Shown one piece after another: positions 1-22,638 of a stretch of DNA of 64,000 nt. Location of the stretch: positions 1-64,000 of the forward strand of contig JACRHJ010000021.1 of assembly GCA_016212105.1 (NCBI GenBank). The letters run 5' to 3'. The notes under the pieces are model-generated. The model worked only from the letters and a program-made list of their open reading frames with translations, searched no databases and had not been told where the DNA came from. The DNA is from Nitrospirota bacterium (GTDB taxonomy: Bacteria > Nitrospirota > JACRHJ01). The translations under genes and the position numbers were made by a program. Position 1 is the first letter of the stretch. Every line of letters starts with the position of its first letter.

Positions 1-83
1 CCCTTATTGCGAAGGCGGATTACCTGCTTGCGAAGCTCGTACTTTGATGCTTTGTTTAACTTGCGTGCGTCGGTCTTTTCCAT
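1..83 (-). mobile_element. IS630-type transposase, N-terminal fragment cut by the window edge
   Basis: Read on the minus strand, an ATG at 83-81 opens a frame that stays open to the window edge (27 codons, beginning MEKTDARKL and continuing with a basic ...LRKQVIRLRNKG stretch). This matches the usual first residues of IS630-family transposases, just before their helix-turn-helix. Only the N-terminus is visible, so I cannot say whether the element is intact. No terminal inverted repeat was identified. Family call is by recognition of the N-terminal phrase only. Confidence 0.55.
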
Positions 84-148
84 GACCGACACTATATCAC
101 AAATAGAGATGGATTGCACTAAATATCCACCGGGTTAATATAAGGCAT

Positions 149-379
149 TTATGCATGAGAGAGCACGAAGTCCTCGTGGTTACCCCGCAGAAGGACCATG
201 TAGGGCAGCTCATGCTTTACTTGTAAGATATCTACGACCTCGAAGCTACTGGACCCCCTGTCTATATAGGCGCCAAGAAATACAAGCCTGCTGTCCGCAG
301 TTGGCGCTATCTGCCCGACAAGACCGGCCAGCTTGTCCAGGTGCCCGTGAATGTCGCCGATAGCGATCAGCCTTGACAT
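149..379 (-). pseudogene. Truncated PPP-family metallophosphatase (serine/threonine phosphatase-like)
   Basis: A 76-residue frame carries the first three metal-site motifs of bacterial PPP-family phosphatases in order: GDIHGH (residues 8-13), GAYIDRG (where GDYIDRG is expected) and RGNHED near residue 66. Intact relatives are about 210-240 residues and have two further His motifs that are missing here. The second motif has lost its metal-binding Asp (D to A), and the frame stops just after GNHED. Both the truncation and the lost ligand say this is a decayed fragment. It lies next to transposase debris, which may explain the loss. Confidence 0.6.
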
Positions 380-582
380 GCTGCGTGGTCTCGCAGCCTG
401 CTATTCGTACTATTATATTGGCATAAATGATTAAATATGCTATATTAAATGACATATGAGGCTATATGCGACCGATAAAGCCTCATTTGGTAAATTAACA
501 TACCTTACATGACAAGTTGACCGCGAATAATAATTACTTACTGGCTTAACAATGCCGTATTTACCTTCCGTTTTCAAAGAGG
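380..582. promoter_or_regulatory. AT-rich leader upstream of the exopolysaccharide operon, with an inverted repeat
   Basis: This stretch is far more AT-rich than its surroundings and has no convincing reading frame. It contains a perfect 8-bp inverted repeat, atgaggct at 456-463 and agcctcat at 479-486, with a 15-nt loop. No clear sigma70 or sigma54 consensus stands out; a GG/GC pair near 541-556 has the wrong spacing for sigma54. Because the long plus-strand operon begins at 583, the operon promoter and any operator most likely lie here. That placement is inference. Confidence 0.4.
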
Positions 583-1785
583 ATGCTCATCCACAAGGCT
601 ATACGAGCGGTCAATATATTGAAGATACTACACATTATCACGCGGCTCGACATGGGCGGCTCCGCCTTGGCGCTCATGCTCATCGCGGCGCTGCAGAAGC
701 GTCGTGGTTATGACGTCGCCGTGGCGCACGGCCCGACCGGCAACCACCAGGACGCAGCCTTCCTGGGCGGCGCGGGTGTCACAGTCCATTACATCCCCTC
801 GCTCGTGAGAGACATAGAACCGCTGAAGGACATCCATGCGCTCTTCTCGGTCTGGTCGCTTATAAGGATGACGAGGCCGGACGTAGTCCATACGCACACA
901 TCCAAGGCCGGGTTCGTCGGACGCCTCGGCGCGAGGCTCGCGGGCTGCCGGGCGGTGGTACACTCGCCGCACGGGCATGTGTTCTCGGGTTATTTTTCTC
1001 CTTACAAGAGCTCAATGTTCGTGCTGCTCGAACGCATCGCAGCGCGTTTCTGCGACCGCATCCTGCCTCTGACGTCCGCCGAGGCGGACGAGTACGCTGC
1101 CCGGGGCGTCGCCCCGATGGAGAGGATGCAGCCGGTGCCGATGGGCGTCAGCCTGGAAGGGTTCAAGCGCCCGTCAGTGTCGAGGCGGGAGGCAAGGCTT
1201 GCGCTCGGCATACCCGAGGACGCGGCGGTCGCCGGATGGGTCGGCAGGCTCGACCCGGTTAAGGACTGCGGGACGTTCATCGCGAGTTACCGGGCTGTTT
1301 CTGAGGGATGCGCGGCGTCCGCCGGTGTCTGGTACGTGGTCGTTGGCGACGGGCCCGAGGGCGCCGCCATCCGGACGAGAGCGGATGCTGCGGGCGGCGG
1401 GCGGATAGTGTTGACCGGCAGGCGTGACGACGTGGGCTGCCTGCTTCAGGCTATGGACGTGTTCGCGCTTACGTCATTGAACGAGGGCCTCGGCATGGTC
1501 CTGGTCGAGGCTATGGCGGCCGGCGTGCCGGTGGTTGCTACAGAGGTCGGCGGCGTGCCAGAGGTCCTGGGCGACGCGGGCTTTATGGTCCCGCCGGGCG
1601 ACCCGCAGGCGCTCGCCCGCAAGCTTGCCCGGCTGCTGGCGGACGAGGGACTGCGCAAGGAATTCGCGGACAGGGGCCGGGCGCGGGCCGAGCGGTACTC
1701 GATAGAGAGCACCGAGCGCGTGCTCGCGGGGCTTTATGAGGAAGTCCTCGCGGGCGCGGGTCTGGCGCGCGGGGCGGCAACATAG
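583..1785 (+). CDS. Glycosyltransferase family 4 (GT-B fold)
   Basis: A 400-residue cytoplasmic sugar transferase, probably acting on a lipid-linked exopolysaccharide intermediate. The N-terminal half has the glycine-rich acceptor-side start (LHIITRLDMGGS) and a HTHTSKAGFVGRLGA segment; the C-terminal half has the nucleotide-sugar-binding region ending in the GT4 E-x7-E signature at about E301/E309 (NEGLGMVLVEAMAAGVPVV). First gene of the operon. The ATG at 583 has AGAGG almost touching it; a TTG at 619 would give the more typical N-terminus KILHIITRLD, so the true start is uncertain. The sugar and linkage cannot be read from sequence. Confidence 0.88.
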   Translation: MLIHKAIRAVNILKILHIITRLDMGGSALALMLIAALQKRRGYDVAVAHGPTGNHQDAAFLGGAGVTVHYIPSLVRDIEPLKDIHALFSVWSLIRMTRPDVVHTHTSKAGFVGRLGARLAGCRAVVHSPHGHVFSGYFSPYKSSMFVLLERIAARFCDRILPLTSAEADEYAARGVAPMERMQPVPMGVSLEGFKRPSVSRREARLALGIPEDAAVAGWVGRLDPVKDCGTFIASYRAVSEGCAASAGVWYVVVGDGPEGAAIRTRADAAGGGRIVLTGRRDDVGCLLQAMDVFALTSLNEGLGMVLVEAMAAGVPVVATEVGGVPEVLGDAGFMVPPGDPQALARKLARLLADEGLRKEFADRGRARAERYSIESTERVLAGLYEEVLAGAGLARGAAT

Positions 1786-1786
1786 C

Positions 1787-1815
1787 CGTCATTCCCGCGA
1801 GAGCGGGAATACAGC
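1787..1815. repeat. Palindromic 'cattcccgc...gcgggaat' intergenic repeat
   Basis: A short inverted repeat (cattcccgc, then gcgggaat) directly after the glycosyltransferase stop. The same family recurs at about 28966-28994, 31130-31225, 31903-31957, 42881-42912, 46229-46285, 49232-49290, 51468-51500 and 62125-62184. It is non-coding and probably a REP/MITE-like element. Confidence 0.7.
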
Positions 1816-1830
1816 GACTTTAACTCTCGA

Positions 1831-1870
1831 AAGTTTTTGGGCCGCCTTTTTCCAAAAAGGCGGGACTTTT
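1831..1870. repeat. Hairpin repeat, copy 1 (second copy at 15107-15146)
   Basis: A perfect stem, ccgccttttt at 1842-1851 and aaaaaggcgg at 1854-1863, within a roughly 40-bp unit (aagtttttgggccgcc...ggcgggactt). A close second copy lies at 15107-15146. Both copies sit just upstream of a start codon inside the exopolysaccharide locus, so they could act as internal RNA hairpins, attenuators or processing sites. Confidence 0.75.
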
Positions 1871-1895
1871 CCTGCCTGTACCGAGAGGAAACAGC

Positions 1896-2717
1896 ATGTA
1901 CGAAGACTACTGGGGCCTGACGCTCCCGCCGTTCCAGAACGTGCCGGACCCGAGGCTTTACTTCGCATCCGCCCAGCACGAGGAGGCTATATCCCGCCTC
2001 ATGTACGTCATAAAGGGCGGCAAGGGCGCGGCCATGCTGACCGGGGAGGTCGGCTCCGGCAAGACCACCGTCTCGTGGATGCTGGCCAAGAGGCTCGGGC
2101 ACGACTGCAACATCGGCGTGATAAACAACCCGGCCCTCTCCCCGCTCGACTTCCTCCGGGAGGTGGCGTACCAGCTCGGCGTTCCGGACGGAGGCGTAAA
2201 GCGGCCCGCGAAACTTTCCCTGCTCCACGCATTCAACGAGTTCCTGTACGAGAACAACAAGGCCGGACGCGAGACGGTGATAATCGTGGACGAGGCACAG
2301 ATAATAAAGGACGTCAGGATATTCGAGGAACTCAGGCTCCTGCTCAACTTCCACATGGACGACCGCTTCCTGCTGACCCTCGTCCTGATGGGCCAGCCGG
2401 AGCTGTCCGGGAAGATAGCGAAGGTCCCGCAGCTCGGACAGCGGATAGCCGCGCGCTACCATCTGGGCCCGCTCGGCCCGGAGGAGACGGCCGGCTACGT
2501 GCGCACAAAACTCCGCGCGGCCGGGGGCAGGGACGGCATATTCACCGACGGAGCGCTCGGCGAGGTCTACAGGGTTACCGGAGGGATTGCGAGGGATATC
2601 AACAACGTGGCGGACCTGGCGCTTCTGGCCGGTTTCGCGGAACAGTCCGGGGAGGTCACCCCGGCGCTCGTCCAGACAGCGGCGATGGACGGCATGGCCA
2701 GGGCAGGTGCGATATAG
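1896..2717 (+). CDS. ExeA/GspA-like AAA ATPase of exopolysaccharide loci
   Basis: A 273-residue ATPase of the ExeA (AAA_22) type. It begins MYEDYWGL, the hallmark opening of this family, with Walker A GEVGSGKT at residues 50-57 and Walker B VDEAQ with D132/E133. Proteins of this kind are often encoded in exosortase-type (XrtA) exopolysaccharide loci beside Wza/Wzc-type genes, where their exact role is not settled. The long peptidoglycan-binding tail of classical ExeA is absent. No exosortase gene is visible in the window. RBS GAGAGGA precedes the ATG. Followed 32 bases later by the HD-GYP gene. Confidence 0.85.
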   Translation: MYEDYWGLTLPPFQNVPDPRLYFASAQHEEAISRLMYVIKGGKGAAMLTGEVGSGKTTVSWMLAKRLGHDCNIGVINNPALSPLDFLREVAYQLGVPDGGVKRPAKLSLLHAFNEFLYENNKAGRETVIIVDEAQIIKDVRIFEELRLLLNFHMDDRFLLTLVLMGQPELSGKIAKVPQLGQRIAARYHLGPLGPEETAGYVRTKLRAAGGRDGIFTDGALGEVYRVTGGIARDINNVADLALLAGFAEQSGEVTPALVQTAAMDGMARAGAI

Positions 2718-2749
2718 TAAGGAACATAGACATAATAAACGGCGGAAAG

Positions 2750-3796
2750 GTGCCTGACCCTGACGACAAGTCGAATGCCAGGAAGGTCTCGTTCACGGAC
2801 GCAGCCCTGAAGTATCCGGGAGTGGACGCGGGCGCCGAGAAACCGCAGCCCTGCCAGCCGTGCGAGGACGCCGCCCCGGAAACGTCCGGAGCCAGCCTTG
2901 AGGAAGACTACGCCACGGCCGAGGGTCTGCTGGACGAAGCGCTCGACATAGTCGGCAGGGGAGGGCTGATACGCCTGGAGCCGTTCGAGAGGCTGTCCGG
3001 GAGCTTCACGGAGCGGCTGCTGGACGGGGAGAACCTTGCCCTCGCGGCCTACAACAAGAAGACTGCGGACTACGACGTGGTATCCCACTCGCTGAACGTG
3101 GGGATACTCTCGCTCCAGGTCGGCAAACGCCACAAGCTCCCGAGGCAGGATCTCCAGGAGCTGTGCACCTCCGCGCTCCTGCACGACCTCGGCATGGTCA
3201 AGGTGCCGCGCGACATATTCCTGAAGCCCGGCACGCTGAGCACCACGGAGCGGGAACTTCTCCAGAAGCATCCCGCCGTGGCATACGAGGCTATACTTGG
3301 CGCGCACGACGCCACGGCCTCCGAGAAGGGCATGGCCGAGGTCGCCTACAGCGTCCACGAGAGGTGCACAGGCAGGGGATACCCCAGGAGGCTCTCCGCT
3401 GACGAGATACCGGAGCGGGCGAAGCTGCTGGGGCTGATAGACATGTACGAGGCCCTTACGCACAACCGTCCTTTCCGGAAGCGGCTCCCGCCTCTCGACG
3501 CCATAAAGGAGATAATCGCAACCGGCAGGGACTGCTTCCCGACAGACGCGCTGAAGGCGCTGATAGATCAGCTCACGACATACCCCGTCGGCTGTTCGCT
3601 GAGGCTCAACTCCGGCGAGATATGCAGGGTGGTCGCTACCAACCCGTTCTCGCCGCTCCGGCCTGTGGTCGAGGTTATATTCTCCGGCAGCGGGAAGAGG
3701 CTCGCCGAACCGAGGACGCTCGACCTGTCGCGCTCCCCGCTCCAGTTCATCGTGGACACGGTCTTCGAGGAAGACCTGCCCAGTCCGGGAGTGTGA
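2750..3796 (+). CDS. HD-GYP domain protein (putative cyclic-di-GMP phosphodiesterase)
   Basis: About 348 residues from a GTG at 2750; no ATG is available in frame before the domain, so this start is my choice. An N-terminal region without recognised domain precedes an HD-GYP domain: LLHDLGMVKVP carries the HD pair at about residues 145-146, and VHERCTGRGYP stands for the HHExxDGxGYP motif. HD-GYP enzymes hydrolyse cyclic di-GMP, the second messenger that usually controls exopolysaccharide production, so a regulatory role in this locus is plausible. The motif is not perfectly canonical (HDLGM for HDIGK; first His of HHE replaced by Val), so activity is uncertain. Its TGA overlaps the next ATG. 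Confidence 0.8.
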   Translation: MPDPDDKSNARKVSFTDAALKYPGVDAGAEKPQPCQPCEDAAPETSGASLEEDYATAEGLLDEALDIVGRGGLIRLEPFERLSGSFTERLLDGENLALAAYNKKTADYDVVSHSLNVGILSLQVGKRHKLPRQDLQELCTSALLHDLGMVKVPRDIFLKPGTLSTTERELLQKHPAVAYEAILGAHDATASEKGMAEVAYSVHERCTGRGYPRRLSADEIPERAKLLGLIDMYEALTHNRPFRKRLPPLDAIKEIIATGRDCFPTDALKALIDQLTTYPVGCSLRLNSGEICRVVATNPFSPLRPVVEVIFSGSGKRLAEPRTLDLSRSPLQFIVDTVFEEDLPSPGV

Positions 3797-4806
3797 TGGG
3801 ATACGGCGCGTTCATAATACACGGGGCAAGGGTAGGCATATACCCGCCTGACTCACGGATGGCGGACGAGTTCGGGCTGGAGCTGTTACCCATTATCACG
3901 GGCCGCGCGCGTGACTGCGAGGCCGACGTGCTCGCCGTCTACGATGAGCAAGGCGGCACGTCGTCACGCACCGGAGACGGTACGCTCCATTTCGACGCCG
4001 GCTGGGAGGGCGCTGAGAACTTCGAGGTCGCGGACGGCGTCCGGGTCTACCTGGACTATGGCAGGCTCGCGGTCAAGATATCCGCGAGAGACGGATCGTC
4101 ATTCGACGAGTCGCTGCTCGCGCTGGTCAACCTCGTCGAGTACATGCTGAGGCTGCACATGCACAGGAGCAGGCCGCTTGCCGTTTTCCATGCAGCGGCC
4201 TGGGAAGTCGGCGGGGCGGGCATACTCCTGCCGGGCGCGTCGGGGGCTGGCAAGACCTCGCTGTCTTTTATAATGGAGGCCGCCGGACACTTGATCATCT
4301 CTGACGAGGACTCTTTCGTCGTGAGAGGCGCGGACGGGCTGACGCTCCTCCCCTACCCTCGCAGGCTCAGGGTCGGAGGCGGGCTGCTCGCCGCATACCC
4401 GGAGCTGCATAACAGGGCCGCAAGGCCGTACAGCGCGTTCGGGGGCGAGGGGCTCCTGTTCGAGCATGACGGCAGGCCGGCATGCGTCGCGCCCCTCGCG
4501 GCGGTCGTGTTCCTCGACAACGACCCCGCCCACACAGGGCCGCCCATGCTCACGCCTCTGACTGAGAGGGCGCGTGTGCTCTACTCGCTCCTGGGTTCGG
4601 GCGAGTATTACCCCGCGGACAATGCCCACGGCCCTATGAAGGCTGAGTTCGCGGCTTTCAACAGGGCGCTGTTCGGTATCGCATGCGAGGCCGTAGACAA
4701 AGTACCCGCCTGGCGGCTTGTTTACGACATAACAAGGCAGTGCCGGCTCATACCGGAAGTAATCGAAGAACTTGCGTCGAACCTGATGGAGGCAGGACGT
4801 GTCTGA
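3796..4806 (+). CDS. HprK-like P-loop kinase of a peptide-modification cassette
   Basis: A 336-residue protein whose C-terminal half resembles HPr kinase/phosphorylase: a conserved His at H132 (FHAAAW), Walker A GASGAGKTS at residues 147-155, and ISDED after it, matching the HprK catalytic layout. True HprK acts on HPr, but no PTS gene is nearby. HprK-related proteins next to PqqD-like genes are known from exopolysaccharide loci, and in some lasso-peptide clusters HprK homologues phosphorylate the peptide. The start overlaps the preceding stop (TGATG), and the 3' end overlaps the PqqD gene by 8 bases. The substrate is unknown; a peptide or sugar in this locus is an inference. Confidence 0.8.
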   Translation: MGYGAFIIHGARVGIYPPDSRMADEFGLELLPIITGRARDCEADVLAVYDEQGGTSSRTGDGTLHFDAGWEGAENFEVADGVRVYLDYGRLAVKISARDGSSFDESLLALVNLVEYMLRLHMHRSRPLAVFHAAAWEVGGAGILLPGASGAGKTSLSFIMEAAGHLIISDEDSFVVRGADGLTLLPYPRRLRVGGGLLAAYPELHNRAARPYSAFGGEGLLFEHDGRPACVAPLAAVVFLDNDPAHTGPPMLTPLTERARVLYSLLGSGEYYPADNAHGPMKAEFAAFNRALFGIACEAVDKVPAWRLVYDITRQCRLIPEVIEELASNLMEAGRV

Positions 4807-5077
4807 ACATATAGAAATAATGCCCAGGGCAAACCCCTCGTTACTCAGCCGCAGGGAGGGCGACTCCCTCGTCCTGTTCAACGAGGACAGCGGGGACCCT
4901 TTCATCCTGAACGGCACCGGCGCCCGGATATTCGAGCTTGCGGACGGGAGGCGGGGCATAGGCGAGATTGCCGTCATGCTTGCGGCAGAATACGACGCCC
5001 CGGAGGAAGTCCTCGCCGATGACTGCGCCGAGTTCATAAGCATGCTGATACAAAAAGGGCTGCTGGAGGTGGCATGA
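4799..5077 (+). CDS. PqqD-family peptide chaperone (RiPP recognition element)
   Basis: A 92-residue winged-helix protein of the PqqD type, which binds leader peptides and presents them to modifying enzymes. Family hallmarks are the LNGTGARIFELADGRRGIGEI turn and helix region and the C-terminal DDCAEFISMLIQKGLLE helix. The GTG start at 4799 has GGAGG about 7 bases upstream. It lies between the HprK-like gene (8-base overlap) and the radical SAM gene (4-base ATGA overlap), which is the usual neighbourhood of a discrete RiPP recognition element. The 54-residue peptide encoded at 6068 is the natural candidate client. Confidence 0.88.
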   Translation: MSEHIEIMPRANPSLLSRREGDSLVLFNEDSGDPFILNGTGARIFELADGRRGIGEIAVMLAAEYDAPEEVLADDCAEFISMLIQKGLLEVA

Positions 5078-6066
5078 GGCTTTCCGCACCCATTGAGGTG
5101 TACTGGTGGCTGACCAGCCGCTGCAACCTCTCGTGTGCCTTCTGTCTGGCTGACGGTGGTGCGCCAGACCCCGGCGGAGAGCTCGACGAGGCCGGGAGGC
5201 TCGCTGTGCTGCGGGGACTGACGGAGGCGCGCGTCCTGCGCGTGGTGCTCTCCGGCGGAGAGCCGATGCTACTGCCTGGGATATACGGGTACATCAGCGA
5301 GCTGAGCCGGGCAGGCGTCTCGGTGGAACTTACGACGAACGGCACGCTCATCGACAGAGAGGCAGCAGCAAGGCTTTGGGACTCCGGGCTAAGGAAGGTT
5401 CAGCTCAGCCTGAACGGCTCGACGGCCGCAGTAAACGACCCGCTGATGGGCGAGTCATACGGGCGCATAACGGACGCGCTCGACATGCTCGTCCGGCTCG
5501 GGTTTATAGTCTCGGTGAAGGCTACCGCGACGAGGCGCAACATGGACGACGTGCCCGCGCTCGCCAGGATGCTGATGTCGCGCGGGGTGGTGAAAGTCAA
5601 AGTGGCCGACCCGACGCCTATGGGCAGGGCGTTCACTATGAGAGATACGCTCACGCCCGGCTTAGACGAGATCCGGAGCCTCCGGGAAACCCTCCAGGGT
5701 CTCGCCGCATCCGGTACTGTCGAGTTCGGGAGCTTCATGCTGAGCATGTCCGAGTCGGGCGCGGCCGCACGCTGCACGGCGTCGGGCGCGGCCGCGTACC
5801 GGGCGATAATCACGCCCGACGGGGCGATGGCGCCCTGCACAATGGCGACGCTCTGGCCGAAGAAGCTGAACGTCGCGGAACTCGGGCTCACGGGCGCATG
5901 GGAGAGGTTCGCGGAGTACTCCGGGTATCTCGACCCTGACCGCCTCGGAGGCGCGTGTGGGACATGCCTGGAGAAGAATGACTGCGGCGGCGGGTGCCGT
6001 CCGCTCGCGTACCTTTTCACTGGAGACTTGAACGGCGGGTACTCTCTCTGCCCTATGGGAGGTTAA
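5074..6066 (+). CDS. Radical SAM/SPASM peptide-modifying enzyme
   Basis: A 330-residue enzyme with the radical SAM cluster motif C17-x3-C21-x2-C24 (RCNLSCAFC), the SAM-contacting SGGEP, and a C-terminal SPASM domain binding auxiliary Fe-S clusters: a Cys after the TPDGAMAPC loop and then CGTC-x5-C-x3-C (CGTCLEKNDCGGGC) with a final Cys in SLCPMGG. SPASM enzymes commonly modify ribosomal peptides (PqqE, sactipeptide and mycofactocin enzymes). It overlaps the PqqD gene by 4 bases and is followed one base later by a tiny Cys-rich reading frame, the classic enzyme-precursor arrangement. The reaction type cannot be told from sequence. Confidence 0.9.
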   Translation: MRLSAPIEVYWWLTSRCNLSCAFCLADGGAPDPGGELDEAGRLAVLRGLTEARVLRVVLSGGEPMLLPGIYGYISELSRAGVSVELTTNGTLIDREAAARLWDSGLRKVQLSLNGSTAAVNDPLMGESYGRITDALDMLVRLGFIVSVKATATRRNMDDVPALARMLMSRGVVKVKVADPTPMGRAFTMRDTLTPGLDEIRSLRETLQGLAASGTVEFGSFMLSMSESGAAARCTASGAAAYRAIITPDGAMAPCTMATLWPKKLNVAELGLTGAWERFAEYSGYLDPDRLGGACGTCLEKNDCGGGCRPLAYLFTGDLNGGYSLCPMGG

Positions 6067-6067
6067 A

Positions 6068-6232
6068 ATGGAACAGGAAAAGAAACCCTGGCTGAGGCCC
6101 GAGCTTGAGGAGCTTTCGGTCAACCCGCCCGGAGAATGCAACCCAGGCTGGCCGCAGGGGGCGATATGCAATTTCCAGGGCGTGCCGCAGTACCAGACAT
6201 CATGCAACCAGAAGCCGACTGTATTGAGCTGA
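6068..6232 (+). CDS. Candidate RiPP precursor peptide (54 aa)
   Basis: A 54-residue frame lying 1 base after the radical SAM stop and 10 bases before the transglutaminase-like gene. The N-terminal third is charged and leader-like, containing KPWLRPELEELS: W8-x2-P11-x-L13 mirrors the Y-x2-P-x-L motif by which lasso precursors bind their PqqD-like B1 protein. The C-terminal part (from about residue 18) is rich in Pro, Gly, Gln and Asn, with three Cys at 24, 34 and 46 and aromatics W28, F36 and Y42. From about residue 20 on there is only one acidic residue (E23), so a lasso ring closed at position 7-9 is unlikely. It has no hydrophobic signal. Function as a precursor is inferred from position and motifs. 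Confidence 0.72.
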   Translation: MEQEKKPWLRPELEELSVNPPGECNPGWPQGAICNFQGVPQYQTSCNQKPTVLS

Positions 6233-6242
6233 GGCGTAAGCC

Positions 6243-6815
6243 ATGCATGGCGAACTTTCATACAGGCTGTTGAGGCTCCCGCTTCTGGGTGCGCCTGGCG
6301 GCGGTCTTGTCAGGGCGGCGCTGCCGGCGCTGTTCCATACGAAGCGCACGGCCTCGGCCCTGGCGCGCATGGACCCGGACGTCCTTTGCTGGCCGCGGTT
6401 CCGTTTCGTACGGGAGGCGACAACCGGCCCTCCTACGCTTCTGTTCAGGCTGCTGGCCAGGTCTCTGACGCGCGGGATAACGGGCGAATATGACCGGCTC
6501 GACACCATATACAAGGCGCTAAAGGGTGCAAAGGGCACGGAGCACATGGGCTACTGGCCGCTCCCGCTGGAGGCTCTTGCACTCCCGAGGCTCGACTGCA
6601 AGGGCTTTTCCATGCTGTTCGTGATGCTCGCGAAGGGTGCAGGCATGGACGCGAGGCTTGTCGTAGGCGTGGACGTCGAAGGCAGCGCAGGACATGCATG
6701 GGCAGAGGCGGATACGGAGAGCGGACGGATGATTTACGACCCACGCCTCGCGGCGCCCGTCTCGTTCAACGGCCGGCCCGGGGAGTACGGATGCATAGTA
6801 TCGAAGGCAGGCTGA
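6243..6815 (+). CDS. Transglutaminase-fold protein like lasso B2 leader peptidases
   Basis: A 190-residue protein with the Cys-His-Asp arrangement of transglutaminase-like cysteine proteases: C119 in LDCKGFSML, H151 in GHAWAEAD and D166 in MIYDP. The spacing and the phrase ARLVVGVDVEG...HAWAE match lasso-peptide B2 proteins, which remove the leader from the precursor delivered by B1/PqqD. A GAGG stands about 10 bases before the ATG. It follows the candidate precursor directly and overlaps the nucleotidyltransferase gene by 25 bases. A leader-peptidase role here is inference; many exopolysaccharide loci have transglutaminase-like proteins of unknown purpose. Confidence 0.75.
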   Translation: MHGELSYRLLRLPLLGAPGGGLVRAALPALFHTKRTASALARMDPDVLCWPRFRFVREATTGPPTLLFRLLARSLTRGITGEYDRLDTIYKALKGAKGTEHMGYWPLPLEALALPRLDCKGFSMLFVMLAKGAGMDARLVVGVDVEGSAGHAWAEADTESGRMIYDPRLAAPVSFNGRPGEYGCIVSKAG

Positions 6816-7948
6816 TAAGGCGGCTGCTCGCAGGCGCTTACAAAACGCGGGGCTTGAGCACTGGCGTCCTCACGGGGCGGGCGCGAGGTGAAGCCGCTAT
6901 AGTATCCGGCGTCGACTGGGCTCGTTTCCTTGATCTGTCCTTGTCACATGGCGTCTCCGGCGTACTGTACCGCGAATTGACCGGAGATACTGCGGCGCGC
7001 GAAACGGCCGGCGTCCCGGCCGACGTCATGGCGCGTCTCAGGGCGGACTTCCTGCGGATATCGGCGTACAGGCTCGCTAACGAGAAGGCCATCCGCGAGC
7101 TGGACGAGGCCGTTGCCGGGTCCGGGCTCAGGGTCTGCCTGATACAGGGAGCGGCATTGCCGTACGTGCTGTACGCTTCACCCGGCATGCGCCCGATGTG
7201 CGACATCGACCTGCTCGTAAGGGCGGACGCGCTTCCCCGGCTTACAGGGCTTCTCGCCAGCCTCGGATACGCCGCGGAGAGCGAGGCACCGGTGGTATAC
7301 ACACGCGGCACGGTCACGCTCGACGTGCATACCGAGCCTGTCGAGTTCTCGCGTTTCGGCGGCGTAACGCCCCTCTCCGTCACGGCGGACGACGTCCTGG
7401 GCGAGGCGGGCCCGCTTACCAGGCCGGGCGGGCTCCTCGTGCCGTCGGGACCGGACGTGTTCATACTCGCATGCGCGCACCTGATGAAGCACTCTTTCAT
7501 GCGCCTGATATGGTTCCATGACATAATCCTCCTGTCACGATACACAGGCATCGGGCCGGATGAGTTGTGGAAGCGCGCGGACATGCTCGGTCTCGTGAAG
7601 CCAGTCCGCATGTCTCTCGAACTGGCGAAGGCATACCAGGGCTTCGACGCCGGGTTCCCGCCGCCTCCTCGCGGGCTGGGGTTCCTGGAGGCAAGGATGC
7701 TCGCGGCCCTCAGCAGGTCCGGCCCGGTAAACGGGGCGGGCGACCTGCTCTATATCGCGGGGATGGACACCTTCCAGGGACGCTTGTCGTACATGAGGTC
7801 CGCTCTCTCGCCGCCCTCCCGCGACGCGCTGCCCGGCGGGACGGCGCATTGCCGCAACACTGGAGACACACGGGCCGGGAGGCTCGGAAGGAACATCCGG
7901 CTGTGCGCGTCCGCGGCGTACAGCCTGCTGAAAGGGTCCATGGCATGA
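6791..7948 (+). CDS. Nucleotidyltransferase family protein (NTP_transf_5-like)
   Basis: A 385-residue protein with a minimal nucleotidyltransferase core: GMRPMCDIDLLV contains the catalytic D138-x-D140 pair, preceded by LIQGAALPYVLY. This family occurs in exopolysaccharide loci and also in some HprK-containing lasso clusters, where its substrate is unknown. The ATG at 6791 has GGAG about six bases upstream and lies inside the end of the transglutaminase-like gene. Its stop overlaps the next start (ATGA). It may nucleotidylate a peptide, protein or small molecule, but nothing in the sequence decides which. Confidence 0.82.
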   Translation: MHSIEGRLIRRLLAGAYKTRGLSTGVLTGRARGEAAIVSGVDWARFLDLSLSHGVSGVLYRELTGDTAARETAGVPADVMARLRADFLRISAYRLANEKAIRELDEAVAGSGLRVCLIQGAALPYVLYASPGMRPMCDIDLLVRADALPRLTGLLASLGYAAESEAPVVYTRGTVTLDVHTEPVEFSRFGGVTPLSVTADDVLGEAGPLTRPGGLLVPSGPDVFILACAHLMKHSFMRLIWFHDIILLSRYTGIGPDELWKRADMLGLVKPVRMSLELAKAYQGFDAGFPPPPRGLGFLEARMLAALSRSGPVNGAGDLLYIAGMDTFQGRLSYMRSALSPPSRDALPGGTAHCRNTGDTRAGRLGRNIRLCASAAYSLLKGSMA

Positions 7949-8940
7949 CAAGAAATGGAATGGCGACATTCATAGCATTGGCCGTGAGAATCATGGCCCT
8001 CCTCGCCCTGTCCGCCGGGGCGTTAGCCGCCGAGGTCACGGAGAACAGCACCTTCAAGACCGTTTCCGGCGTCCCGGAATACAGGCTCGGACCAGGCGAC
8101 CAACTGGAAGTCGTCGTGACGCACGGCGTGACGCAGGACAAATACGACGCGACTGTCGCGGCCGGTGGCTCCATCACGGCGGGGATAGTGCGGGTCGGCA
8201 TCGACGGCCTAACTGTCGGCGAGGCGTCCGCGCGGGTCGAGGATGAGCTCAGGAAGTTCGTGCGCGAGCCTTATGTGACGATAAGCGTCAAGGACTACCG
8301 CAGCAAATCCGTGACCCTCCTCGGCGCGGTCCTCTCCCAGTCGCGCCAGCCGACCGGGCCGGGCGTGTACTACCTGAGCGGCAGGACCACGGTCATGGAA
8401 CTGCTCGGCGCGGCGGGCGGGCCGTCCGACAAGGCCAACCTCGAAAGGGTCCAGGTCAACCGTGCGGGCGGCACGCTCCACGTGAACCTCTACCGGACCC
8501 TCACGCTCGGCGACACGGAGCAGGACCTGGTGCTGGACGACGGCGACACGGTGTACGTCCCGGAGCGTGCCACCTCCGAGAGCAAGGTGTACGTATTCGG
8601 AGAGGTGACGAAGCCGGGCGTGTATCCCTATAACCGTGACATGGGCCTGCTCCAGGCGATATCCCTCGCGCAGGGCTACACGAAATATGCGGTAATGGAC
8701 GAGGTCCGCATTATTCGGGGCAGCGCGGAGAAAACCGACGTCATCACCGCGTCGGTAGAGGGCCTGCTGGAGGACGGCGACCTGAGCCAGGACATAGCGC
8801 TCCTGGGCAACGACATAGTCTACGTGCCGAGGAGCGGGATGGGCGACTGGAACGACTTCGTGGACAAGGTCATGCCGACCATACAGCTTATAACCGCGCC
8901 GTTAAATACCATGACGCAGATAAAGTACCTTTCCCAGTGA
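7945..8940 (+). CDS. Polysaccharide export protein, Wza/EpsE type
   Basis: A 331-residue envelope protein with an N-terminal signal peptide (MALLALSAGALAAEV) followed by a polysaccharide-export domain beginning YRLGPGDQLEVVVTHG and repeated SLBB domains (KSVTLLGAV..., SKVYVFGEVTKPGVYPY). It forms the periplasmic/outer-membrane exit pore for the polymer. Unlike classical Wza there is no lipobox Cys after the signal. The start overlaps the preceding stop as ATGA. A second ATG lies five codons downstream and could be used instead. It is paired with the Wzc-like gene 19 bases downstream. Confidence 0.9.
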   Translation: MTRNGMATFIALAVRIMALLALSAGALAAEVTENSTFKTVSGVPEYRLGPGDQLEVVVTHGVTQDKYDATVAAGGSITAGIVRVGIDGLTVGEASARVEDELRKFVREPYVTISVKDYRSKSVTLLGAVLSQSRQPTGPGVYYLSGRTTVMELLGAAGGPSDKANLERVQVNRAGGTLHVNLYRTLTLGDTEQDLVLDDGDTVYVPERATSESKVYVFGEVTKPGVYPYNRDMGLLQAISLAQGYTKYAVMDEVRIIRGSAEKTDVITASVEGLLEDGDLSQDIALLGNDIVYVPRSGMGDWNDFVDKVMPTIQLITAPLNTMTQIKYLSQ

Positions 8941-8959
8941 CGGACACCGACGGAGCCTT

Positions 8960-11173
8960 ATGACATCGTATGAACTGAACATACGCGACTACTGGCGGAT
9001 ACTCAAGAGACGGAAGAAGATAATCCTCCTGTCCGGGGCGGTCCTCGCGCTGCTCACGTTCCTGATGGGCGAGGCAAACGCGCCCAGGCCGCTCTACGAG
9101 GCGACGGCCTCCGTGAAGGTCGAGCGTTCGAGCACCATGGCGGGGCTTTTCATGGAGGTGCTCACCTGGTCGCCCATGGACAACATAGCCACGCAGACCT
9201 CCGTGATTAGGAGCTACCCGGTACTTGCGGAGAGCGCGGCCCGGCTCGGGATGATGCCTTCGGGCCTTGGCCCGGACGACGTGCGCGCCGACACGTCCTA
9301 CATGGCCGCGGTGTCCAAGCTCCAGTCGATGGTCAAGACGGAACAGGAGGGCGCGACCAACATAATCAACATCACGGTCTCGGCGGCGAGCCCCGACGAG
9401 GCGCAGAATATGGCCAACACCGTCGCAGAGGCGTACAGGGACCAGAACATCGAGATGAGGAACCGCCAGACGACCGAGGGCAGGAAGTTCATCGAGTCCC
9501 AGAGGAAGGTCGTCGGAGAGAGGCTCGCCAAGGCAGAGGAGTCGCTGAGGAGTTACAAGGAGACGTCCGGGGTCCTCGACATAAACGCCGAGGTCAGCCA
9601 GATGATGGACCGGACGGCAGAGCTCGAAAGCGAACAGGGCGCGCTCAGGCGCCGGATGGACGAGGCAGTCAAGGGGATAGCCGCGCTGAAGGCCGACAGG
9701 GCCGCGCCAGGAGACGGGAGCAGGCTGTTCACCGAGGGCTCCGACTCCTCGCTCTTCAGGCTGAACAGCCTGCTGACCGACCTTCAGCTGAAGCGGGAAA
9801 ACCTCCTCATGACATACCTGTCCACGCACCCGCTGATCGCGGACCTCGACTCCCAGATTACCAACACGCGCGGCGAGATGGCCGGGGAACTCACGGCCAA
9901 GCTGACGTCGTACAGGGAAAAGGACGCGCTCCTCACGAGGGACATAGCGGGGCTCAGAGCCAGGCTCGGCTCAGCCCCGGAGGCCGGGCTTGAACTTGCC
10001 AGAAGAGAGAGGGACGTAAAGGTAAACGCCGAACTGTATGCCCAGCTCGAGGCCAGGTATCAGGAGGCGCTTATCCGCGAGGCGGAGAGGATTGAGGAGG
10101 TCAGCATAATCCGGCCCGCCACCGCCCCTTCCAGACCGGTAAACCCGCCGAAACGCACCGCACATACCGTCTTGGGCTTCGGCGTCGGCATACTCCTGGG
10201 CCTGGTGCTCGCGTTCCTGCTCGAGTCCGTAGATACTTCTATCGGCACGATAGAGGAGGTCGAAGACTTCCTGAACGTACCTGTCATAGGCGTCATACCG
10301 GACTTCGGGAAGGACAGGCTGAAGAAGGAGATGACGGCGTTCTACCCGAAGGCCGGCCACGACGAGATAGATATGTACTCACGGCTCGTCACGCACTTCG
10401 CGCCGAAGTCAAACCTGTCCGAGTCCTACCGGTCGCTCCGCACCAACATAGAGTTCCTCGGCATAGAGATGGAGCACAAGGTATTCCTGTTCACAAGCTC
10501 CGCGCTCCGGGAGGGCAAAACCACTACCGTCGTGAACCTCGCAACCGTCCTGGCCCAGCTCGGAAGGAGGGTCATGGTGGTAGACGCCGACCTCAGGAAG
10601 CCCACGGTGCACCATGTCTTCGGCCTGGAGTCGCACGGCGGGCTCACCGACGTGCTGATGGGCAGCCACACGTGGCAGGAGGTCACGCGCACGGCGACCG
10701 ACATCATGCTCGGGAGACTCGGCGTGGACAACCTCATGCTGACGCCCGGGCTCGACAACGTGAACGTGATAACGGCGGGCGCGATACCGCCCAACCCGGC
10801 GGAGTTCCTGCACTCGCCCAAGCTCCCCGCCCTTATTATGGAACTCCGGAAGGAGTACGACATTGTCATATTCGACACGCCGCCCGTCCTGCCCATCACC
10901 GACGCTATGATCATAGCTGACAAGGTGGACGGCGTCGTCATCGTGTACCAGGTCGGGAGGATGGCGCGTTTCGCGCTCAAGAGGTCGAAGGCGTTGATTG
11001 AAAACGTCGGCGGCAAACTCCTCGGCGTAGTCCTTTCCGGCGTGCGGGCCGAGGTCAGCTCGGACTACTATGCGCACAGCTATTACTATTCCGACGAAGA
11101 AGCCGGGGACGACAAGCCCCACCGCTGGAAGGGCCGTGTCAAAAAGAGGCTCGACACATGGAAAGACCAATAA
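8960..11173 (+). CDS. Wzc-like chain-length determinant fused to tyrosine autokinase
   Basis: A 737-residue inner-membrane protein. The N-terminal Wzz domain starts with ELNIRDYWRILKRRKK followed by the first membrane helix; a long coiled coil spans about residues 150-370; PSRPVNPPKRTAHTVLGFGVG leads into the second helix. The cytoplasmic BY-kinase follows, with Walker A REGKTTT (K520) and Walker A' VVDADLRKP (D542, D544). The C-terminus has a tyrosine cluster (DYYAHSYYYSDEE) for autophosphorylation. It controls polymer length and export with the Wza-like protein. GGAG precedes the ATG; the 3' end overlaps the next gene by 16 bases. Confidence 0.93.
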   Translation: MTSYELNIRDYWRILKRRKKIILLSGAVLALLTFLMGEANAPRPLYEATASVKVERSSTMAGLFMEVLTWSPMDNIATQTSVIRSYPVLAESAARLGMMPSGLGPDDVRADTSYMAAVSKLQSMVKTEQEGATNIINITVSAASPDEAQNMANTVAEAYRDQNIEMRNRQTTEGRKFIESQRKVVGERLAKAEESLRSYKETSGVLDINAEVSQMMDRTAELESEQGALRRRMDEAVKGIAALKADRAAPGDGSRLFTEGSDSSLFRLNSLLTDLQLKRENLLMTYLSTHPLIADLDSQITNTRGEMAGELTAKLTSYREKDALLTRDIAGLRARLGSAPEAGLELARRERDVKVNAELYAQLEARYQEALIREAERIEEVSIIRPATAPSRPVNPPKRTAHTVLGFGVGILLGLVLAFLLESVDTSIGTIEEVEDFLNVPVIGVIPDFGKDRLKKEMTAFYPKAGHDEIDMYSRLVTHFAPKSNLSESYRSLRTNIEFLGIEMEHKVFLFTSSALREGKTTTVVNLATVLAQLGRRVMVVDADLRKPTVHHVFGLESHGGLTDVLMGSHTWQEVTRTATDIMLGRLGVDNLMLTPGLDNVNVITAGAIPPNPAEFLHSPKLPALIMELRKEYDIVIFDTPPVLPITDAMIIADKVDGVVIVYQVGRMARFALKRSKALIENVGGKLLGVVLSGVRAEVSSDYYAHSYYYSDEEAGDDKPHRWKGRVKKRLDTWKDQ

Positions 11174-12516
11174 GCAAGGCCGTCGCGGGCGCGGCGGCGC
11201 TGCTTGTATACTGCGCGCTGGCCCTGTTCATATCGCAGTCGTCCGCGAAGCTCGTGCTCCTGGCGGTGGGCGGCCTGCTCCTGACGGCGTCCGCGTTCAT
11301 CTATGCCGAGGGAGCGCTGTACGCGCTCATATTCTCGATGCTGCTCTCGCCCCAGATAGTAGTCGGCGAGACCGCCGCGCGCGAGATCACGCTCCGGCTC
11401 GATGACTTCCTCATAATCTTCATATCGCTCGGCTGGCTCGCGAGGGTCGCGGTTAACAAGGAACTGGGGCTCTTCCTCAGGACGCCGCTTAACGGCCCGA
11501 TAGGGCTGTATATCCTCGCATGCGTAGCCTCGACCTCGGCTGGCGTCGTGGCCGGGCTTGTGGGGCCGCTATCCGGCGCATTCTTCCTGCTCAAGTACGT
11601 CGAGTTCTTCTTCGTGTACTTCATCGCGGTCAACCATGTAAAGGACGGCACCCAGGTGAAGCGGTTCGTAGCCGCGCTCCTTGTCGTATGTCTCCTCACC
11701 AGCATATACGCCCTCATACAGGTACCGCTGGGCGGTCGCGTCTCCGCCCCGTTCGAGAAGTACAGCGAGCCGAACACCCTCGGAGGCTACCTCGTCCTGA
11801 TGCTCTCGCTCACTGCCGGGATGATGATGACCGCTCGGAAGAGGAGGAGTATATTCATGCTATGCGGGGTGGGAGCCGTCATAGCCGTCCCGCTCCTGCA
11901 CACTTTATCGCGCGCGTCCTGGCTCGCAGGCACTATGATGACGCTTGCGCTCCTGGTCTTCAGCGACAGGAAGCTTGCATTGGCTGCGGCTGTAGCGCTC
12001 GCGGTCGCGGTCTCACCGCTTGTCCTGCCGGAGCAGGTCAAGGAGCGCGCCGTCTCGACCTTCCAGCCGGACAGGGGCTTCAGGCAGAGCCAGACAGTGG
12101 CCGGCGTCACGCTCGACCCGTCCACATCAGAGAGGATAAGCGGTTTCAAGCGAAGCCTGAGCAAATGGTCGGACAGGCCAATATTCGGATACGGAATAAC
12201 CGGCGCTGGCTTCATAGACGGCCAGTACTTCAGGACGATTGTCGAGCTTGGGCTCGTCGGCCTGGCGGCATTCCTGTACATGCTCTACAGGGTCTTCAGG
12301 ATACTTTACACGGCTTACCGGTCGGAGGAAGACCCGTACTTCAGAGGGCTCGCACTCGGCGCGCTCGCTGGTCTTCTGGCAATGATGGCGCACGCGCTCG
12401 GCTCCAACAGCTTCATGATCGTCAGGATAATGGAGCCGTTCTGGTTCGCGGTCGGGCTGATAGTCGCGCACGGCCTGGCGAAGGCAGGCGACAGCAGGGA
12501 TGCGGCCTATGAATGA
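11158..12516 (+). CDS. O-antigen ligase/polymerase-like membrane protein (Wzy/WaaL family)
   Basis: A 452-residue protein made of about ten hydrophobic helices, with the O-antigen ligase core in the second half: a long loop holding a WSDRPIFGYGITGAG segment flanked by helices, as in Wzy polymerases and WaaL ligases. In a Wzx/Wzy-type locus with flippase, Wzc and Wza present, polymerase is the likelier role; family similarity alone does not separate polymerase from ligase. It overlaps wzc by 16 bases at the 5' end and the methyltransferase gene at the 3' end. Confidence 0.85.
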   Translation: MERPISKAVAGAAALLVYCALALFISQSSAKLVLLAVGGLLLTASAFIYAEGALYALIFSMLLSPQIVVGETAAREITLRLDDFLIIFISLGWLARVAVNKELGLFLRTPLNGPIGLYILACVASTSAGVVAGLVGPLSGAFFLLKYVEFFFVYFIAVNHVKDGTQVKRFVAALLVVCLLTSIYALIQVPLGGRVSAPFEKYSEPNTLGGYLVLMLSLTAGMMMTARKRRSIFMLCGVGAVIAVPLLHTLSRASWLAGTMMTLALLVFSDRKLALAAAVALAVAVSPLVLPEQVKERAVSTFQPDRGFRQSQTVAGVTLDPSTSERISGFKRSLSKWSDRPIFGYGITGAGFIDGQYFRTIVELGLVGLAAFLYMLYRVFRILYTAYRSEEDPYFRGLALGALAGLLAMMAHALGSNSFMIVRIMEPFWFAVGLIVAHGLAKAGDSRDAAYE

Positions 12517-13357
12517 TAGCGGCAGATGCCCGCTTTGCGGGTCAGCCGGACGCGAGGAACACCTGAGCGGGCCGGGCTTCGTCCTTTACCGCTGCGCGGC
12601 ATGCGGCATGGTGTACCAGGACGCGCTCTACTCGGCAGGCGGCACGTATGAAGAGGGCTACTTCCAGGCGGGATACATGGCTGCCGAGAACGAAGAGCGG
12701 CTCGGAAAGAATGCGAGAGAGATTCTGGAGGCGCTTGCCCGCCACGTCGACAAGGGACGGCTCCTTGACATCGGCGCGGGCCCGGGTTATTACGTCAAGG
12801 CCGCGGCAGGCCGCGGATGGGACGCGCACGGGGTGGAGGTTTCGCGGTACGCGGCAAAGCACGCGAGGGAGGCCCTCGGCCTGGACGTCTTTTGCGGGAC
12901 GCTCGAAGAGGCGCAGTACCCGGACGGCTGGTTCGACGCGGCGATGATGGTGCACGTTGTGGAGCACCTGCCGGACCCTGTCGGGACGATGAAGGAACTC
13001 AACCGTGTCATGAGGAAAGGCGGCGCGCTCCACCTGTCTACGCCCAACATAACCAGCCGGAACGCAAGGAGAGACGGCGCGTCCTGGTGGGCGCTCAAGC
13101 CGGGCGAGCACCTGCTCTTCTTCTCGCCGGATACCATAAAGAGGCTTCTGAGCATGACCGGCTTCGAGGTAGTGGAGTTCGACACGAGCGCTACGGTTAT
13201 CAGCACGGAGTCGCTGCGGGGCGCTGGACTCCCCGCGGGTGAAGGCCTGCGGACGTTCGTGAACAGTTACCTTAAAGGCCCCAAGGAGTTCGTGAGACGT
13301 GCAGCCGGACGTCTTATCCAGGGCGAGAGCATAAACCTGATAGCGGTGAAGAAGTGA
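12509..13357 (+). CDS. Class I SAM-dependent methyltransferase with N-terminal zinc ribbon
   Basis: About 282 residues. The N-terminus has two Cys pairs (CPLC and CAAC) forming a small zinc ribbon, followed by a Rossmann methyltransferase with motif I LLDIGAGPGYY and HVVEHLPDP after it. This two-part layout is common in sugar- and surface-polysaccharide-modifying methyltransferases. The ATG at 12509 is preferred because AGG lies about 10 bases upstream; an ATG at 12500 three codons earlier is possible. The start lies within the end of the ligase gene. The substrate is unknown. Confidence 0.85.
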   Translation: MNDSGRCPLCGSAGREEHLSGPGFVLYRCAACGMVYQDALYSAGGTYEEGYFQAGYMAAENEERLGKNAREILEALARHVDKGRLLDIGAGPGYYVKAAAGRGWDAHGVEVSRYAAKHAREALGLDVFCGTLEEAQYPDGWFDAAMMVHVVEHLPDPVGTMKELNRVMRKGGALHLSTPNITSRNARRDGASWWALKPGEHLLFFSPDTIKRLLSMTGFEVVEFDTSATVISTESLRGAGLPAGEGLRTFVNSYLKGPKEFVRRAAGRLIQGESINLIAVKK

Positions 13358-21451: not shown

Positions 21452-22638
21452 CGTTCAGGATAATACCGACGGCGGGCACGCCCGTGACCCTGGCCGACCT
21501 CGCGCACGCGGCGGTGGCGAAGGCCGGCGCCGTGCGCGAGTTCGAGGGAACCCTGGCCACAGTCCTCCGCGTCCAGTATGTGTCCTGCGCGGGATCGGCC
21601 ACGGCGGCGATGTATTACATACTACTCGCGATGAAGCGGCTGACGGCCGACCCGTGGCGAAACGAGGTCGTGCTCCCGGCATACACCGCCGGCGCGCCGG
21701 CGCTCGCCATAATGCGTGCGGGCCTCGTGCCGAGGCTCGCGGAAGTATCGCTCGCGAGCTTCAACGCGGAGCCCGACAATTTCATGGAAGCGGTTGGGGA
21801 GCGCACTCTTGCGGTGGTGCCGACCAGCCTCTTCGGCATACCTGTCGACGCGGGCAGGCTCCGGGCGATGCTTCCGTCTGATGTATTCGTCCTCGAAGAC
21901 GCGGCCCAGTCCATGGGCTCGGCCCTGGATGGCAGGGCCACCGGGACGATGGGCGACGCAGGCGTAGTCAGTTTCCAGCGGGGCAAGAACATGTCGACAT
22001 ACTCTGGCGGGGTCGCCCTGACGGACAGAGAGGACATCGCCGCGCTCGTCGCGCACCATGCGGGCGCAGCACATCGGCCGGGGCCGCTCGATACGGCGGC
22101 CGAAGCGGCCAAACTCGCCCTCGTTTCGGCCGTGGTGTGTCCGTCGGTATACGGGCTGGCCCACAGGCTGGTAGCGCCTCTCAAGTCCACCGGGCTTCAC
22201 GAGGGTTTCCGCGACAGCGCCTATACACCGTTCCAGGCAGGCGTGGGGCTGCGGCTCCTCGCCAGGCTCGATACCCTCTCCAAAGAACGAGCCGAGAAGG
22301 GCATGTACCTCATATCCGCGCTTTCAGGGTTAGGCGGGATAACAACCCCTGCCCTGCCGGCGGGCTCGTCGGTGGCGTTCGCGCACTTCCCGCTTCTCGT
22401 AAGCGACGAGGCGCGCATCGAGCGGATTCAGGAGAGACTGTTGCGGGCGGGCATGGAGACCTCCCGTTTTTACATGAAACCTCTGCAACAGATGATGGAC
22501 CTCGGGTATTCACCCGACCCGGACCCGTACCCCGACGCCACGTACCTGGCCCGGCACCTGCTCCTCATACCCGTGCACCACTATTCCGGCATGGACATGC
22601 TGGAGGAGGCGGCGCGTGTCATAAAGGAGACCGCATGA
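21448..22638 (+). CDS. DegT/DnrJ/EryC1/StrS-family PLP enzyme (sugar aminotransferase-like)
   Basis: A 396-residue PLP-dependent enzyme. Typical features are SAGSATAAMYYILLA-like cofactor-binding N-terminal helix (here CAGSATAAMYYI), FVLEDAAQSMGS, and FQRGKNMSTYSGG with the Schiff-base Lys at K180. The family makes amino sugars by transamination of keto-sugar nucleotides. The active-site region has RGKN where SxxK is more usual, a variant seen in some members. ATGA overlaps at both ends; directly precedes a radical SAM gene. Confidence 0.85.
   Translation: MTFRIIPTAGTPVTLADLAHAAVAKAGAVREFEGTLATVLRVQYVSCAGSATAAMYYILLAMKRLTADPWRNEVVLPAYTAGAPALAIMRAGLVPRLAEVSLASFNAEPDNFMEAVGERTLAVVPTSLFGIPVDAGRLRAMLPSDVFVLEDAAQSMGSALDGRATGTMGDAGVVSFQRGKNMSTYSGGVALTDREDIAALVAHHAGAAHRPGPLDTAAEAAKLALVSAVVCPSVYGLAHRLVAPLKSTGLHEGFRDSAYTPFQAGVGLRLLARLDTLSKERAEKGMYLISALSGLGGITTPALPAGSSVAFAHFPLLVSDEARIERIQERLLRAGMETSRFYMKPLQQMMDLGYSPDPDPYPDATYLARHLLLIPVHHYSGMDMLEEAARVIKETA

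Follow-up and report, generated by a model that had tools for sequence, protein, structure and literature searches.

A radical SAM peptide cassette with an HprK-like kinase in an exopolysaccharide operon of a Nitrospirota bacterium

A 64,000-nucleotide stretch of the Nitrospirota bacterium contig JACRHJ010000021.1 (assembly GCA_016212105.1, positions 1 to 64,000 of the forward strand), referred to here as the window, was analysed with regard to six genes at positions 3796-7948. These genes formed a real cassette of the type that makes ribosomally synthesised and post-translationally modified peptides (RiPPs), and the cassette belonged, as a divergent form, to a widespread kinase-linked radical S-adenosylmethionine (SAM) peptide module. 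The six genes were as follows.

3796..4806, + strand: HprK-like kinase (336 residues); PF07475 21.6 bits, below the cut-off; TIGR04352 28.5 against 200 bits; alignments; AlphaFold model
4799..5077, + strand: discrete PqqD-type RiPP recognition element (RRE; 92 residues, GTG start); PF05402 59.3 against 23.4 bits
5074..6066, + strand: radical SAM/SPASM enzyme (330 residues); PF04055 72.5 against 29.5 bits; shared invariant Cys columns
6068..6232, + strand: precursor peptide (54 residues), MEQEKKPWLRPELEELSVNPPGECNPGWPQGAICNFQGVPQYQTSCNQKPTVLS; ribosome site, codon statistics, precursors of relatives
6243..6815, + strand: transglutaminase-like cysteine protease (190 residues), candidate leader peptidase; PF01841 37.6 against 23 bits
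6791..7948, + strand: nucleotidyltransferase NTP_transf_5 (385 residues), candidate tailoring enzyme for phospho-Ser; PF14907 120.3 against 31.2 bits

All six frames were tightly packed and free of internal stops, and the overlapping gene order given in a preliminary description of this DNA was borne out. The Pfam cut-offs were passed by four products (PqqD, Radical_SAM, NTP_transf_5 and Transglut_core), while the HprK and B2 models stayed below theirs. No match to the asparagine-synthetase-like lasso cyclase (PF00733) occurred on the contig, as had been claimed, and the matches elsewhere in the genome were weak and partial. The description was also right in recognising a cassette of RiPP type, whose precursor is credible, in a polysaccharide operon. 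A GGGAGG ribosome site was located 5 nucleotides ahead of the ATG of the precursor frame. The GC content at its third codon positions was 0.73, and its codon score was higher than those of its other five frames and lower than those of the neighbouring genes. The peptide contained a WxxPxL leader motif (WLRPEL, residues 8-13), Cys24, Cys34 and Cys46, and a C-terminal Ser54. The terminal serine, which the description had left out, was its most telling feature.

In the kinase, His132, Lys153 (in the Walker A sequence GASGAGKT) and Asp170 were invariant with the relatives in alignments. The profile match was weak (PF07475 cut-off 33.3 bits). The AlphaFold model, built from an 18-sequence alignment with a mean pLDDT of 70.8, matched PEPCK and HPr kinase structures in the PDB and supported the assignment as an HprK-like kinase. 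The conserved Ser at the C terminus of the precursor is the phosphorylation site of the HprK-like lasso-cluster kinases PadeK, ThcoK and SyanK, whose His-Lys-Asp-Asp motif matters; PsmN, an annotated nucleotidyltransferase, is required for the addition of hexose to phospho-Ser (PMC9266682). In the systems for linear polyphosphorylated peptides (LPP; Popov et al., 2026), the RRE recognises and binds the YxxP leader, Ser3 of the core is polyphosphorylated by LppK, and the SpI signal peptidase cleaves; the role of the NTP transferase is unresolved there, and the text contains no mention of radical SAM (PMC13381572).

The PqqD protein had the lasso B1 protein TbiB1 as its nearest solved structure by sequence (E 1e-4), and together with WLRPEL it agreed with the lasso pattern of a [Y/W]xxPx[L/V/I/F/A] leader and a discrete RRE. 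The radical SAM enzyme contained CX3CX2C at RCNLSCAFC and SPASM-type cysteines (CGTCLEKNDCGGGC ... C). Adjoined by a PqqD domain and a short peptide, it was placed among the radical SAM/SPASM maturases, for which peptide modification is predicted. Its nearest solved structure was PqqE (6c8v, E 5e-20), and its best NCBIfam scores were MftC (125 bits) and PqqE (113 bits). These matches would suit a peptide that is not secreted and serves as the precursor of a redox cofactor or as a scaffold for maturation, like those of mycofactocin or pyrroloquinoline quinone (PQQ). However, both scores were far from the thresholds (265 and 381 bits), the cassette had no other mycofactocin or PQQ gene, and the precursors were lasso- and LPP-like in the leader, contained Cys in the core and ended in Ser. 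This function is therefore improbable.

The putative protease had a triad of Cys119, His151 and Asp166, which was invariant in its alignment, and the core of its AlphaFold model (residues ~54-176) was of fair confidence and matched the cysteine protease 3isr and TgpA. By sequence, it gave partial matches only, to longer transglutaminase-like proteins. Release factor 2 matches in the PDB (E ~0.03) were dismissed as chance. The protein had previously been described as lasso-B2-like, but it missed both B2 cut-offs (NF033537, 21.5 against 33; PF13471, 25.1 against 26), and the profile comparison gave a probability of 5%. For comparison, true B2 proteins of Nitrospira-type loci scored 53.5-54.8. 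The transglutaminase-like fold was kept, and transglutaminase-like cysteine protease is the better name. The only S26 signal peptidase match of the genome was on contig C14 and none was in the cassette locus; hence, among the cassette products, the transglutaminase-like protein alone was recognised as a candidate leader protease.

Relatives were collected by surveying 296 Nitrospirota genomes for PqqD and from 60 fetched regions and a scan of named GTDB contigs, with profiles built for this analysis; the compared sequences included many metagenome-assembled genomes. PqqD, radical SAM and HprK genes were found together at 63 non-redundant loci, whose hosts, besides Nitrospirota, included Aminicenantes, Omnitrophota, Deltaproteobacteria, Chloroflexota, WOR-3, Planctomycetota, Verrucomicrobiota, Kiritimatiellota, Acidobacteriota, Elusimicrobiota and Bacillota. 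Related radical SAM enzymes were present at archaeal loci, one of which (L172) had PqqD and HprK as well. Judged by gene content, the combination of PqqD, a radical SAM/SPASM enzyme, a short peptide and an HprK-like kinase is a recurrent module of about a dozen phyla. A literature search returned no match for SynChlorMet, nor for radical SAM, PqqD, HPr kinase and RiPP together, and the module is largely undescribed in the searchable literature. A single paper contained both HprK and radical SAM, a genome report in which each term appears once.

The short frame with a leader motif, which the preliminary description had expected in homologous loci, was found there. A frame of 40-75 residues with [YWF]xxPx(hydrophobic) occurred within ~460 nucleotides downstream of 41 of 66 radical SAM genes, compared with 445 of 4000 control stretches (11.1%) drawn from the same loci; at least two of the 41 frames looked spurious (L067, L169). 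Among 45 precursors, 38 ended in Ser and three in Thr, whereas the remaining positions behind the motif contained 7.9% Ser. The terminal Ser persisted when one locus per lineage was counted (10/12, p 6e-10). Moreover, exactly three Cys residues followed the motif in 34 of the 45 precursors, a number also present in the window peptide.

The window version is, by these comparisons, singular among its relatives. No close relative of its radical SAM enzyme was found in the GTDB contig scan, none of 61 relatives matched it at E<=1e-30, and 396 Nitrospirota genomes gave no close relative and one 32% match in an unrelated context. Its best plasmid matches were mycofactocin, PqqE and other radical SAM proteins.

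The cassette probably makes a Cys-containing RiPP that is modified by the radical SAM enzyme, phosphorylated at its C-terminal Ser and freed from its leader by the transglutaminase-like cysteine protease. The gene set, the operon coupling, the catalytic residues, and the leader, Cys and terminal-Ser features with their conservation were read from the sequence, and the chemical steps, their order, the product, its export and its function were inferred. PqqD would bind the 54-residue precursor at its WxxPxL leader and hand it on to the other proteins. Modification of the Cys-containing core would be the task of the radical SAM/SPASM enzyme, and a thioether or another crosslink is the usual guess for it. 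Since the window peptide and the 38 precursors of relatives end in Ser, the residue targeted by paeninodin-type kinases, phosphorylation of the C-terminal Ser is expected; the HprK-like kinase may phosphorylate, perhaps polyphosphorylate, Ser54, and the nucleotidyltransferase may attach a nucleotide or sugar to the phosphate. The Cys-His-Asp transglutaminase-like protein would cut off the leader. The product is probably exported or acts with the polysaccharide because its expression is coupled to exopolysaccharide synthesis.

Several observations weighed against this scheme. The second Asp of the His-Lys-Asp-Asp motif of the kinase was replaced by Glu (SDED), and since LPP kinases phosphorylate Ser3 of the core and not the C terminus, an HprK-like kinase is no proof of C-terminal phosphorylation. 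The radical SAM enzyme formed a long branch that was not placed with those of the relatives, with identities in the tree of at most ~30%. The protease had no close family, and its 53-residue N terminus was of low confidence. The window peptide lacked the EEVLxxCK stretch that most relatives carry after the motif. Polysaccharide export (Poly_export) relatives were present in 8 of 63 radical SAM loci and 0 of 23 loci without radical SAM, which was no clear contrast. Furthermore, the 45 precursors were curated by hand after the Ser pattern had been noticed, and 90 of the 445 chance leader-motif frames (20%) ended in Ser, so that the null value for a single peptide is nearer 20% than 7.9%. The 38 of 45 precursors with a terminal Ser are far from chance under either value, with relatedness controlled in part.

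The closest named systems were compared with the cassette. The LPP clusters combine an RRE, an HprK-like kinase and an NTP transferase, often within capsule loci (PMC13381572), and all three components were present in the window, as were a [Y/W]xxP leader and a polysaccharide-locus setting. The features specific to LPP are the SpI signal peptidase, an MsbA-like exporter, phosphorylation of core Ser3 and a reported occurrence in Bacillota only (PMC13381572). The window differed from LPP in its radical SAM enzyme, cysteine protease and C-terminal Ser and in having no signal peptidase, and its leader, KPWLRPELEELSVNPP, did not follow the LPP motif YxxPxVLxHQxIxFETxxS. The cassette might still be an LPP-like system: phosphorylation would then be the chief modification, the radical SAM enzyme would play a minor part or act on another substrate, and the cysteine protease would stand in for the signal peptidase. 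The shared core (PMC13381572) and the kinase, which was most like those encoded in Nitrospira-type PqqD-HprK-NTP-B2 loci that have no radical SAM gene, were consistent with such a system. On the other hand, the cassette had no signal peptidase and the genes checked included no MsbA-type exporter; the radical SAM gene was intact and overlapped the PqqD gene, and radical SAM enzymes accompany these kinases at many loci. An LPP-like system is thus considered unlikely. An S26 signal-peptidase-like gene was located near the kinase in many radical SAM-HprK loci (for example L072, 12128-12682; L131, 8189-8896; L132, 8250-8723); this layout, not present in the window, resembles the arrangement of the LPP leader peptidase.

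Lasso clusters of the paeninodin/pseudomycoidin type had in common with the window a WxxP leader, a PqqD-type B1 protein, a kinase, a nucleotidyltransferase, a cysteine-protease candidate and a C-terminal Ser. The window differed in that it had a radical SAM enzyme, no macrolactam cyclase and a protease below the B2 cut-offs. The earlier interpretation as lasso machinery with the cyclase exchanged for a radical SAM enzyme was accurate in that the cyclase was gone and the radical SAM enzyme present, but HprK, PqqD, radical SAM and peptide are themselves a widespread module. The named SynChlorMet cassette (TIGR04248-TIGR04251) is one branch of that module. It has PqqD-like, HprK-like and radical SAM/SPASM genes like the window, and differs by two specific radical SAM enzymes and repeat-rich peptides without a terminal Ser. 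Weak matches to ScmC, ScmD and ScmE/ScmF and a weakly paeninodin-like leader (NF033524, 14 bits, cut-off 27) could point to a cassette of the SynChlorMet type or to a lasso cluster that has decayed. The scores for ScmC, ScmD, ScmE and ScmF were all below the cut-offs (20.6/125, 35.7/100, 84.6/400 and 69.1/400), whereas a true SynChlorMet locus of the same phylum (L084) passed all four (329, 128, 640 and 634). With one radical SAM enzyme instead of two, no cyclase on the contig and intact frames, either origin is very improbable. The models of two further systems were also far from matched or below threshold: HPr-rel-A (TIGR04352 kinase, 28.5/200; TIGR04353 PqqD, 25.1/35) and GeoRSP (TIGR04302, 27.9/100; TIGR04303, 94.6/400). 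In the Nitrospirota SynChlorMet cassettes L084, L071 and L087 (by layout also L069/L091), several repeat-rich small peptides with a YxxPxL-type leader were observed. These peptides could be the Scm precursors, and the one tested matched no NCBIfam model.

The Nitrospirota PqqD-radical SAM-peptide-HprK loci (L066, L072, L083 and others), for which no name was found, shared the core genes and a Cys-containing precursor with a terminal Ser, and some of them were situated in polysaccharide-export loci like the window. They differed in radical SAM enzymes that form related clades, leaders with EEVLxGCK and an often different gene order; many had a nearby S26 signal peptidase, and none had a transglutaminase-like protein. 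Among the loci of other phyla, L178 (Omnitrophota) had the gene order of the window (kinase, PqqD, radical SAM, peptide, NTP) and a C-terminal Ser. In loci of this type, unlike the window, the transglutaminase-like gene was not found, and the sequence identity was low. A related locus of the cultured Desulfosediminicola flagellatus (L160) contained PqqD, signal-peptidase-like and radical SAM genes.

The cassette was translationally coupled, by overlapping frames, to a Wzx/Wzy exopolysaccharide operon: the stop of the HD-GYP-type gene overlapped the kinase start, and the export gene start (7945) overlapped the nucleotidyltransferase stop. The adjacent genes, which give the context of the cassette, were as follows.

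1896..2717, + strand: XrtA/PEP-CTERM-type ATPase relative, upstream; TIGR03015 206 against 324.5 bits
2771..3796, + strand (start codon provisional): HD-GYP-type HD domain protein; PF13487 93.1 bits
7945..8940, + strand: SLBB polysaccharide export protein; PF02563 44.3 bits, PF22461
8960..11173, + strand: Wzc-like chain-length determinant/tyrosine autokinase; TIGR01007 174 against 108 bits

A GT4 glycosyltransferase, the XrtA-type ATPase relative and the HD-GYP protein preceded the cassette. The SLBB export protein, the Wzc-like kinase, a Wzy_C ligase, a methyltransferase, an acetyltransferase and a Wzx flippase followed it, and further members were a heptosyltransferase-like protein, WbqC, PIG-L and a WecA-like transferase. 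A tie to exosortase, hinted at by the XrtA-type ATPase, was dropped, as exosortase was not found in the genome. The polysaccharide locus also encoded a second radical SAM/SPASM protein (552-residue frame, 22137-23795), beside which no PqqD gene was seen.

The 8 Poly_export-containing loci among the 63 (0.84 Mb) compared with ~0.5 expected (Poisson p 9e-8), where the expectation was the rate of a single phylum, Nitrospirota (0.63 per Mb), and the loci were not independent. Restricting the count to the 25 Nitrospirota loci gave 4 against 0.24 expected (p 1e-4). The link to polysaccharide is, at the level of gene arrangement, operonic and statistically recurrent, in agreement with the capsule-locus positions published for LPP and paeninodin-type clusters; a functional link is hypothetical. 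The coupling to the export and Wzc-like genes in one operon, and the NTP-export-Wzc-Wzy order common to the Nitrospirota polysaccharide locus L072, might also mean that the cassette products act as tailoring enzymes on the polysaccharide or its carrier, with the short frame untranslated or not the substrate. However, the PqqD protein implies a peptide substrate, the frame has a ribosome site at the position of the relatives' precursors, and L072 too has a PqqD-radical SAM-peptide-HprK set a few kb away, which makes such tailoring very improbable. In L072, the NTP-export-Wzc-Wzy block was observed at 1-5122 in the order of the window, and the PqqD-radical SAM-peptide-HprK-signal peptidase set at 8900-12682 on the other strand, a few kb off. 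The nucleotidyltransferase might belong to the polysaccharide operon alone; its sole relative at E<=1e-12 in the 296 Nitrospirota genomes, however, was in L072, near that other radical SAM-peptide cassette.

An even chance was given to the view that the cassette represents an unnamed, phylum-spanning class of radical-SAM-modified phosphopeptides (HprK-like kinase, PqqD, radical SAM enzyme and a [YW]xxPx Cys peptide with a C-terminal Ser), a sister of the lasso/LPP phospho-RiPPs that recurs at polysaccharide export loci. The window would then carry a representative that has diverged deeply from the others and has a leader protease of a novel type. If the proposed chemistry is right, PqqD with a [YW]xxP leader and one kinase would be common to lasso cyclisation, linear polyphosphorylation and radical SAM modification, and this shared module would explain the trading of parts among such peptide families. 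The signature of leader motif, Cys core, C-terminal Ser and HprK-like neighbour would find undescribed phosphopeptides in little-studied phyla. Moreover, the recurrent polysaccharide-export setting makes a role of lasso/LPP phosphopeptides in capsules or biofilms genetically testable.

The best matches of the cassette genes were in different types of loci. The kinase was nearest to Nitrospira-type PqqD-HprK-NTP loci with a true B2 and without radical SAM, PqqD to a radical SAM locus of Acidobacteriota (L171), and the nucleotidyltransferase and the export protein to L072. Hence, a mosaic origin of the window cassette is suggested by the sequences of the kinase, PqqD and nucleotidyltransferase. 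The hybrid maturation system proposed in the preliminary description is favoured to this extent, and what such a hybrid would make and do stays conjectural. The Nitrospira-type family f9 (L103, L104, L106, L108, L111, L114-L117) contained PqqD, a YxxPx peptide of 37-55 residues, HprK, NTP and B2, no radical SAM gene and no obvious cyclase, and some members had an MsbA-type transporter. By its gene content, this family is an LPP-like layout outside Bacillota, with B2 replacing the signal peptidase. In the Nitrospira-type loci L120 and L122, three radical SAM genes were accompanied by two near-duplicate peptides ending in RPS, HprK, NTP and an S26-type peptidase.

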